A program made the translations under genes and the position numbers. Shown here piece by piece: positions 2,562 to 5,328 of a DNA stretch of 64,000 nucleotides. This stretch comes from Fibrobacter sp. UWH6 (lineage in GTDB: Bacteria > Fibrobacterota > Fibrobacteria > Fibrobacterales > Fibrobacteraceae), in the NCBI RefSeq assembly GCF_900142465.1, contig NZ_FRAX01000009.1:62001-126000 (forward strand), given 5' to 3'. The notes under the pieces are model-generated. The model was not told the DNA's origin. It saw nothing but the letters and a program-made list of their open reading frames with translations, and ran no database searches. How positions within the stretch are numbered: the first letter of the stretch is position 1; each line of letters opens with the position of its first letter.

Positions 2562-3150
2562 ATGAAAAAAGATGGCCTTGATGGCGTTTGCTCTTTGTGC
2601 AACGACACTTTTTGCTGACGAATCGTTTGGAGGCATTGGTCTTGTTGTACAAGACTGAAACATTGGATTAGGAATTGAAGCTATCATCCCAAACACACCT
2701 GCGGCAAAATCTGAATTAAAGGTAGGCGATTTAATCATCGCTGTAGATGGTAAAGGGTTTGAAAATCTGTCGTTCGAACAATCCGTTTCCTTATTCCGTG
2801 ATGTAAAGAACAAACCGATTGTTCTCACATATATCAGTGATGGCGACACACTTCAAGCAACACTTCGCCGTGCAATAATTACGACAAAACAAGTATCTTC
2901 AATTGACGCAAGTGTCGGAGAAATCAACGGAAAGAAATATGTTTCCACATTTGAACTTGGTGATGACAATTACACAGCTGTTTTTCTTGACAGCTCATCA
3001 CCATCTTTTAAAAATGACAACTCTAATCACAATGACAGGCAGAGTGGTCTTCGTCTGTTGCAAATTCAAGACAACATCATCAGCTATGAGAACAGGGCTA
3101 GTGGGAAAACATTTTCCACTGATTTGAATGGCAAATCTCGTAATAAATGA
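2562..3150 (+). pseudogene. Broken secreted PDZ-domain protein
   Basis: From a good ribosome site and ATG at 2562, the frame shifts after six A residues: MKK continues only if one base is removed, giving MALMAFALCATTLFADES (signal peptide) from the ATG at 2572. In that second frame a TGA at 2656 interrupts GIGLVVQD*NIGLGIEAII, where Trp would fit. After it the frame is open for 163 codons to a TGA at 3148: a PDZ core (GIEAIIPNTPAAKSELKVGD, LIIAVDGKG), then a polar C-terminal part. Two lesions in the first 100 bases argue for a dead gene or a sequencing error pair. It is the first gene of a four-gene run; the next start lies 20 bases after its stop. Confidence 0.75.
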
Positions 3151-3170: not shown

Positions 3171-4010
3171 ATGAAGAAGATATACTTTTTAGCTCTTGGC
3201 GCATTGATTTCGTACACTCACGCACAGTTGATTGTGAGTGAAAAAATTTATCAGCAGATGGACGCACGAGAAAATCCGCGAGTCCTTATGAAAAGTCAGA
3301 AGGCTGTTTCGCAAGACTCCTACATTTATACGATTGCAGGATCACGCGACTTTAAATCGGGGAAAAATTTTCAAGTCAAGAAACTTGATGATTTTCATCG
3401 TTTCACTGTAAACAAGAAAAACAAGAAGAAACTCCACCTTGCGTCTGAAGACGAAATGCGCATACGCGCCATGGATGACATCAAGGCAATCTTACCCAAG
3501 GATGTCGCCGACTCCTGCGCCATAACGTCTGTAGGCTATGATTATTTAATGACTGATTCTTCGGAATCTAGAATCGTCGGCAGTACCGTTATGGTTCATC
3601 GAAAACTTGATGGAATGTCTGTCAGGAGCAACTCATATATCTTGGTTAATTACGATTCAACAGGAAATATGTCGTATATGGATGTTCGATGGGAAAAGTA
3701 CAACAAAATTTCTGCCAAAAGTACCGTTGAAAAGTCCCAAAGATCTAAAATTCACAGGCAGGAGTTCAACGGTATGGTTGAATCCGTATCTAGAAATTTA
3801 AAAGAAAAAAATCTTCGGGGAAGTTTGGACAATTCTGTTCAAACTTTAGCCAGTTTTGAAAACGAAAACGGGGAAGTAATGCTTCTTCCGAGTGTCACCT
3901 TTATTGGACAATACTCTACCATAGATAGCGATGAAAGCATTCCGATGACATTCGACATTCCATCAGATGCATCACTAGTTCCAAACAACAAAGCGGTTGT
4001 TAGCAGATAG
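3171..4010 (+). CDS. Secreted protein of unknown function, possible propeptide-like partner
   Basis: I start at the ATG at 3171 because it follows AGGAGA at proper spacing and yields a signal peptide, MKKIYFLALGALISYTHA; an in-frame ATG at 3147 overlaps the upstream stop and lacks a site. The 279-residue protein has no family that I can name with certainty. Residues about 110-190 (GSTVMVHRKLDGMSVRSNSY then ILVNYDSTGNMSYMDVRW) resemble the beta-rich FTP/PepSY-like propeptides of secreted proteases. The next gene, 12 bases downstream, encodes a candidate cysteine peptidase, so an inhibitory or chaperone role is possible but is inference. Confidence 0.7.
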   Translation: MKKIYFLALGALISYTHAQLIVSEKIYQQMDARENPRVLMKSQKAVSQDSYIYTIAGSRDFKSGKNFQVKKLDDFHRFTVNKKNKKKLHLASEDEMRIRAMDDIKAILPKDVADSCAITSVGYDYLMTDSSESRIVGSTVMVHRKLDGMSVRSNSYILVNYDSTGNMSYMDVRWEKYNKISAKSTVEKSQRSKIHRQEFNGMVESVSRNLKEKNLRGSLDNSVQTLASFENENGEVMLLPSVTFIGQYSTIDSDESIPMTFDIPSDASLVPNNKAVVSR

Positions 4011-4022
4011 GAGATTGATTAT

Positions 4023-4874
4023 ATGAAAAAAATAATCTTCTTTTTTATGTTTATTTGCATCCTTGCAAACGCAAAAGATTCTAATGCTCCTTCAAGTTTT
4101 TCAATCATCACCTTTGCAATTAACCATTACGGTTTAAATAGTAGAGGTGAGCCATGGCGAACAAATTTAGATACACCTATTGAAAACGCTAATACACTAG
4201 TTAATTCCTTTAAAGATAACATCACAAAGAATTATCCTAGCACGTCATTTAAAACTCCAAAGCAATATACTGATGCCGGAGTGACAAAAGCAACATTTAT
4301 AAAAGAAACTGATAACTACAATTTTGTGTATTATGATGGACATGGTGGTGTAGATAGAATAACAATGTGTCCGAATAACGAAAGAGTCTGGAATAATGAC
4401 AAAGCATTCGGAGGCAATACATATTGGGTTATGTTTTCCGCATGCCAAGTCTTCAAAAAAGATGAGATGAATCCTTTTCCTTGGTTTAATGGAGTTCATT
4501 CTATTCTTGGTTATAGTTCATCTGTTACCGATTACGGGACAGAAAAGTATAAAGTAAAATGCGGACTGTTAAATTTATTCAGTTGCTCTCGAACAAGAAA
4601 ATCCTCTTATGTACAAAGAGACTTTGCAACCAATTGGATTAAAGCCAAACAAACTATATGGGAATCCTACAAAAACGCTGTATATAAATGGTTGGTTCAA
4701 GGACGTGATTATGGCGTGGAACCTATAATGGTACATCTTTTTGGTACTGTTGACGGAAAACATTTCGATGGGTCCAAGGAGACGTTTGAAAATTCCATCC
4801 AAAAACCATTATATAGAAACTCAAACTTAAAATTGTATAAAACAATATGTACTTTTGGCACACCAGAATATTAA
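4023..4874 (+). CDS. Secreted DUF6345-like protein, candidate clan CD cysteine peptidase
   Basis: The 283-residue product has a signal peptide (MKKIIFFFMFICILANA) and a site AGGAGA before the ATG. The core is FVYYDGHGG (H107) followed 30 residues later by YWVMFSACQVF (C141), then FNGVHSILGYSS. This layout, a hydrophobic strand then His-Gly, and a second hydrophobic strand then Ala-Cys, is the clan CD arrangement of caspases and gingipains, and the whole resembles DUF6345 proteins. Whether it is a peptidase is inference. It has four extra cysteines (C116, C180, C188, C276). It sits between a possible propeptide-like protein and a lipoprotein. Confidence 0.75.
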   Translation: MKKIIFFFMFICILANAKDSNAPSSFSIITFAINHYGLNSRGEPWRTNLDTPIENANTLVNSFKDNITKNYPSTSFKTPKQYTDAGVTKATFIKETDNYNFVYYDGHGGVDRITMCPNNERVWNNDKAFGGNTYWVMFSACQVFKKDEMNPFPWFNGVHSILGYSSSVTDYGTEKYKVKCGLLNLFSCSRTRKSSYVQRDFATNWIKAKQTIWESYKNAVYKWLVQGRDYGVEPIMVHLFGTVDGKHFDGSKETFENSIQKPLYRNSNLKLYKTICTFGTPEY

Positions 4875-4890: not shown

Positions 4891-5328
4891 ATGAAAAAAA
4901 TATCAATCTGCCTTATACCTTTTCTTCTCCTATTTTCAGCATGCTCTAGTAATCCTGACGAATCAACCACAAGAGATTCTCAAATAACTCTCGATGAAAA
5001 TTTAATACTTTTGGATTCTATATCTCAATGCCTATCTGACACTAACGAAATATCAGAACATTCCAAAATAGACACAGTTTACCTAACGCAGCGAAATAAT
5101 ACGCTATCGCTTGTTTTTCCTTCAGAAATTTATTGTTCCCGAGAAAACATCAAATCAATAGGAGTTTCAATCCAAGATGATACGATTAGTGTCGAATTAA
5201 TTCAAAAGGAATCCAAAACTAATGCTAAACTTGATTGTCCCGTTTGGGTTTACAGTACATTAAACGGAGACCTTAAAGGAAAATACCTACAAGCCCGAAC
5301 GAATGTATATGCACTAATCAAACAATAA
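4891..5328 (+). CDS. Small lipoprotein of unknown function
   Basis: The start is the ATG at 4891, after AAAGGAG; a TTG at 4855 inside the previous gene is a poorer choice. The 145-residue product has a lipoprotein signal with lipobox FSAC (Cys20) and a polar, Thr/Ser/Ile-rich mature part with two cysteines in the second half. I do not recognise a family. It closes the cassette of four same-strand genes, 16 bases after the DUF6345-like gene, and a strong terminator follows. Confidence 0.75.
   Translation: MKKISICLIPFLLLFSACSSNPDESTTRDSQITLDENLILLDSISQCLSDTNEISEHSKIDTVYLTQRNNTLSLVFPSEIYCSRENIKSIGVSIQDDTISVELIQKESKTNAKLDCPVWVYSTLNGDLKGKYLQARTNVYALIKQ

Follow-up and report, generated by a model that had tools for sequence, protein, structure and literature searches.

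The window, i.e., the 64,000-nucleotide stretch of the Fibrobacter sp. UWH6 genome analyzed here (contig NZ_FRAX01000009.1, positions 62,001 to 126,000), carries near its start a closely spaced group of same-strand genes around a member of DUF6345, a Pfam family of unknown function. The features of this group are as follows:

2572..3150, + strand: remnant of a PDZ-domain gene, with an in-frame stop at 2656-2658
3171..4010, + strand: the partner, a predicted secreted PepSY/FTP propeptide-like protein of 279 aa (from its predicted model, structure matches, and linkage)
4023..4874, + strand: the DUF6345 protein, a predicted secreted clan CD-fold cysteine peptidase of 283 aa (from Pfam PF19872, its model, and structure matches)
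4341..4343, + strand: codon of H107, predicted catalytic histidine, within FVYYDGHGG (44 of 44 sequences in alignment A4, 6 of 6 further genes)
4443..4445, + strand: codon of C141, predicted catalytic cysteine, within YWVMFSACQVF (44 of 44 sequences in A4, 6 of 6 further genes)
4891..5328, + strand: small lipoprotein, third gene of the cassette, with a lipobox LFSAC identified by eye (relatives lie beside the pair in other Fibrobacterota)

The stop of the partner gene is separated from the start of the DUF6345 gene by 12 bases, and purine stretches resembling Shine-Dalgarno sequences were seen by eye ahead of the DUF6345 and lipoprotein gene starts. Because of this close spacing and these stretches, the partner, DUF6345, and lipoprotein genes probably form one operon; promoter and terminator scans returned no more than shuffles gave. 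Relatives of the lipoprotein come after the DUF6345/partner pair in many Fibrobacterota loci. The first-pass annotation had placed a possible propeptide-like protein, a lipoprotein, and a PDZ protein next to the DUF6345 gene. The first two neighbors are real, whereas the PDZ frame is present but broken by its in-frame stop in the UWH6 genome, and an ATG just 5′ of this frame is out of frame with it. Intact PDZ relatives occupy the equivalent place in L061, L056, L014, and L064 (with a PDZ domain scoring 33.6 bits against a cut-off of 27 in the L061 copy), and the interruption reflects either decay or an assembly error. In some loci, PDZ genes lie upstream of the pair or past the lipoprotein. 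Two PDZ relatives, L060 and L062, end in near-threshold type IX secretion system (T9SS) sorting tails (22.2 and 22.1 bits, cut-off 23), which we take as a pointer to the cell surface. All PDZ matches used here are un-iterated ones, since the iterated PDZ profile drifted into partner proteins.

The 4023-4874 protein matches PF19872 at 36.6 bits, above the curated Pfam cut-off of 26.9 (E = 4.4e-9), which bears out its initial description as DUF6345-like, and its hydrophobic, signal-peptide-like N-terminus (MKKIIFFFMFICILANA, judged by eye) agrees with the secretion that had been predicted for it. The UWH6 genome holds one DUF6345 copy. At E up to 1, DUF6345 was the sole Pfam match of the protein, with none to C13, C14, C25, or CHAT. 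Among NCBIfam models, the top match was ApbE (E = 0.001, 18.1 bits against a cut-off of 498), which we took as chance, as we did the other weak NCBIfam matches, including one to a bacterial caspase model at E = 0.12. No DUF6345 homologue was found in viral contigs (queried with the protein and with alignment A1) or in plasmids (queried with the protein and L048), and PADLOC returned nothing for DUF6345. A sequence search of the PDB with the protein found no match, and one with the 44-row A4 profile gave four weak matches, all to unrelated proteins.

An AlphaFold2 model of the 4023-4874 protein built from the 12-row alignment A1 (pLDDT 82.1, pTM 0.82) was matched by Foldseek to SAVED-CHAT proteins and caspases at the top, with 45 structures at an E of 0.001 or lower. 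Upon alignment with VIA-align, the best structural match was the SAVED-CHAT structure 8tl0 (Z 16.8 over 185 residues, 3.0 Å), followed by gingipain RgpB (4ief; Z 14.4 over 183 residues, 3.2 Å), DdvA (8rot; Z 14.0), and many caspases (Z about 13-14). Because models without a clear match typically reach a best Z of 7-8, according to the tool's own note, these clan CD matches stand well above background. Accordingly, comparison with caspase-haemoglobinase folds, the check proposed at first pass, yielded a clan CD-like model at Z 13-16.8. The His/Cys dyad of clan CD is described as sitting where two consecutive strands end (PMC4357240). We see the same placement in our model, H107 coming after strand 101-105 and C141 after strand 135-139, and both residues are invariant (see below). 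On the basis of this model, DUF6345 very probably adopts a clan CD fold.

The conservation of the two residues was evaluated in A4, an alignment of 44 DUF6345 members from Fibrobacterota and another group with a median pairwise identity of 20%. Its only invariant columns are H107, G108, and C141. All other Cys columns of the 4023-4874 protein are kept in at most 9 of the 44 sequences, and all other His columns in at most 2, with the exception of H159, which is kept in 36 and replaced by K or R in the other 8. Since these three residues are the sole invariant columns at such low identity, the His/Cys layout that the first-pass annotation had noticed goes beyond chance. Six genes were left out of A4, namely L017/L040 (interrupted frame), L042/L082 (long divergent fusion), and L108, L111, L115, and L120, the last four of which were found later, through the partner rather than through Pfam. 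All six keep the H-G and the C, which are thus present in all 50 DUF6345 genes seen. The four finds made outside Pfam matter here because a Pfam-guided collection could favor H and C. Neither of the outcomes named at first pass as refuting the idea, a fold unlike clan CD or poor conservation of one of the two residues, was thus observed. Judged from this conservation, the H107-C141 dyad is very likely functional.

At the sequence level, links of DUF6345 to clan CD are faint. Weak Pfam matches of A4 members to C25 (E = 0.0021, two members), C13 (E = 0.019, one), C14 (E = 0.031, two), and CHAT (E = 0.32, one) stand among 22 families listed for the 44 members. Profile alignment of A4 with Fibrobacterota C25 domains (27 of the 36, those holding GHG) gave E = 0.058, not significant alone, and a score of 21.05, which 1 of 40 column shuffles exceeded; the alignment register places GHG onto GHG and C141 onto a conserved SC.

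The residue two before C141 varies widely. After a cut at 70% identity, which leaves 35 members of A4, it is D in 9, S in 7, N in 7, E, A, and L in 2 each, and one of six other residues once each. In caspases, Gln184, ahead of Cys186, is described as contacting the P1 side chain (PMC4357240). The position is part of the caspase S1 site and varies in DUF6345, and specificity may therefore differ, which suggests that P1 preference varies among the members.

The partner, 3171-4010, matched no Pfam family at E up to 1. Across 32 partners, none reached the PepSY or FTP Pfam models at that limit, and the one weak Pfam match was to DUF4901 (YcdB/YcdC; E = 0.018). The predicted model of the 3171-4010 protein (from the 32-row alignment A3; pLDDT 83.6, pTM 0.77) nevertheless matched YycI best (2o3o; Z 12.5), followed by an uncharacterised Eubacterium protein (5coz; Z 10.2), fungalysin (4k90 chain B; Z 8.6), YpeB (5boi; Z 8.5), and vibriolysin MCP-02 (3nqy/3nqz; Z 7.2). 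The lower end of these values is near background, and the leading rows form a coherent PepSY-type group. YycI, which is annotated as a histidine kinase regulator, belongs to the PepSY group, and in 4k90_B and 3nqy_A the matched stretches (41-241 and 25-200, respectively) correspond to the propeptides. The predicted fold is thus of the PepSY/FTP type, the M4/M36 propeptides included, which, together with the linkage described next, upholds the early description of this neighbor as propeptide-like. The partner relatives L066-L070, which carry extra regions, span 456-966 aa; NCBIfam gave no match for any of them, nor did Pfam for the three that were scanned.

Of the 50 DUF6345 genes, 48 have a partner relative beside them, one gene off, or fused to them. 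Searched with A4, 18 of 111 Fibrobacteraceae genomes proved to carry full-length DUF6345 genes, 20 in all, and three others carry fragments; the partner directly adjoins 19 of these 20 genes and is one gene away from the other (G053). For 15 further Fibrobacterota genes, the partner was found by profile in 13 and by profile alignment in 2 (L078 and L079). For the remaining 15 (from the L014 and L017 genomes and a group of 394 genomes), it is beside or fused in 13, counting L017 and L086 as having a partner though incomplete; it is fused in L092, L093, and L094. Using as a yardstick 12 control proteins whose best profile-alignment score was 22.9, L078 (39.4), L079 (34.4), L092 (34.7), L093 (60.5), and L094 (56.5) all pass, L082 (27.7) qualifies as a weak fusion, and L091 (18.5) falls below the controls, while its layout is nonetheless like that of L092. 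The iterated partner profile was run on a small set of open reading frames from DUF6345 loci, and its reach was checked by whole-genome searches and controls. Gene order varies by lineage, the partner being upstream in loci like that of the window and downstream in most others.

The converse search with A3 matched 24 of the 111 Fibrobacteraceae genomes: the 18 with DUF6345, four with an orphan lipoprotein-type partner relative (G063, G069, G074, and G088), and two with fragments (G071 and G086); G083 has an orphan relative in addition to its linked copy. Seven Fibrobacter partner-family genes, five lipoprotein-type orphans and two fragments, are hence located away from full-length DUF6345, and the partner family therefore has some life of its own. 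Among the 394 genomes of the other group, A3 matched 11, all within the 12 that carry DUF6345. Both A3 and A4 were built from the same loci and match their own rows by construction; because 7 of the 11 matched genomes supplied rows to A3, the informative part is the lack of matches elsewhere in the 394.

The orphan lipoprotein-type partner relatives without DUF6345 nearby are L112, L113, L114 (by profile only), L116, and L121, three of which (L112, L113, and L121) adjoin a radical-SAM gene that, by eye, resembles a pyruvate formate-lyase activating enzyme. In other Fibrobacteraceae, L117, L118, L139, L140, and L141 are partner or DUF6345 fragments, which suggests that the cassette has been lost repeatedly.

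The family match, the conservation of the dyad, the linkage to the partner, and the operon-like layout are established for DUF6345, and both folds are predicted. Building on the models, we consider peptidase activity of DUF6345 probable, and, on balance, we favor reading the family as exported clan CD peptidases with a His107-Cys141 dyad that are paired with a PepSY/FTP-fold protein. In such a scheme, the dyad would cut peptide bonds, and the partner would do what propeptides do for thermolysin-type proteases, assisting folding and keeping the enzyme latent until the partner itself is degraded or displaced. The partner would usually be supplied in trans: it is a separate gene in Fibrobacterota, whereas some other lineages have it joined to the enzyme at the N- or C-terminus. 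The lipoprotein and the PDZ protein might serve as accessory envelope factors. That the partner is an inhibitor or foldase of the enzyme has about an even chance. The full picture is put forward tentatively, at slightly less than even odds: the two proteins would make up a zymogen system whose thermolysin-type (PepSY/FTP) propeptide module was recruited to control a caspase-fold cysteine peptidase, in trans from the neighboring gene or, elsewhere, through fusion at either end, with lipoprotein and PDZ surface accessories.

The partner might instead be an envelope sensor or adaptor, like YycI and YpeB, that places the enzyme and times its action. We regard this as rather unlikely, even though YycI and the Eubacterium protein outscore the propeptides (Z 12.5 and 10.2 against 7.2-8.6), since cis fusion at either end and proximity to the enzyme gene are just as compatible with a propeptide. 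The PepSY protein YpeB of Bacillus spores, which our partner model matches at Z 8.5, is described as stabilizing the exported hydrolase SleB in trans (PMC6660665) and as possibly keeping it inactive (PMC13393411, PMC6660665), and this pair is a possible precedent, by analogy, for in trans control by a PepSY protein. SleB, however, is a cortex-lytic enzyme and not of clan CD, and the same sources describe its inhibition in vitro by the N-terminal region of YpeB, not by the PepSY region (PMC13393411, PMC6660665), which weighs against carrying the analogy over directly.

A second alternative concerns the enzyme, whose dyad could serve not in general proteolysis but in transpeptidation/sorting or in the maturation of surface proteins. 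PorU, a C25 relative, acts in this way in type IX secretion, C25 proteins are widespread in the phylum (79 of 80 genomes), and the near-threshold T9SS tails on the PDZ relatives L060 and L062 point in the same direction. The 4023-4874 protein, by contrast, has no match to a T9SS tail, and the UWH6 genome already encodes one C25 protein (in a 1,371-aa open frame, presumably PorU), leaving this alternative improbable. That DUF6345 is a caspase-fold protein devoid of enzymatic activity, its H and C being kept for structure, would accord with the lack of a known activity and of any paper naming DUF6345 in the literature searched, but is very improbable, as structure alone explains poorly why invariance falls on just the dyad and its glycine in 44 sequences at 20% median identity.

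The favored reading, an exported clan CD peptidase with a PepSY/FTP-fold partner, resembles several known systems in part. With gingipain RgpB (C25), the DUF6345 protein shares its predicted fold, a His and a Cys after consecutive strands, and secretion. RgpB is described as having an inhibitory prodomain (PMC4357240). Unlike RgpB, the DUF6345 protein lacks a Pfam C25 match, and its partner is PepSY/FTP-like and usually encoded by a separate gene, not within the enzyme chain. SAVED-CHAT/CHAT peptidases gave the best structural match, whereas DUF6345 has no SAVED domain, is, judged by its N-terminus, exported, and matched the CHAT Pfam model in a single member only, at E = 0.32. The M4/M36 propeptides of vibriolysin and fungalysin are similar in fold to the partner, which likewise sits with a secreted peptidase-like protein; here, however, the enzyme is caspase-fold and not a zinc metalloprotease, and the partner is usually a separate gene.

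Orthocaspases are known as prokaryotic caspase homologues. In the literature on PepSY and caspases, no such pairing appeared among the matches listed, judged by title or start of abstract; a search on PepSY, propeptide, and cysteine peptidase surfaced only keratin degradation in Streptomyces, and one on clan CD and Fibrobacter only polymorphic toxins. The present data offer a testable function for DUF6345 and, as far as the models go, describe a probable new family, present in gut and environmental bacteria, of the clan that holds caspases and gingipains. Should the partner act as a propeptide, a single inhibitory module would serve both zinc metalloproteases and clan CD cysteine peptidases, two protease classes unrelated to each other, which, if true, would bear on the evolution of protease latency.

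Two further observations concern individual proteins. In L042/L082, the DUF6345 domain is embedded in a protein of 1,210 aa that starts with a laminin-G-like lectin domain (113.6 bits) at the N-terminus and has a C-terminus that is possibly PepSY-like. In the window itself, the minus-strand frame at 872-1957 encodes a Ser-rich, lipoprotein-like protein with a sub-threshold expansin-like match (EXPB1_D1, 23.3 bits, cut-off 27).
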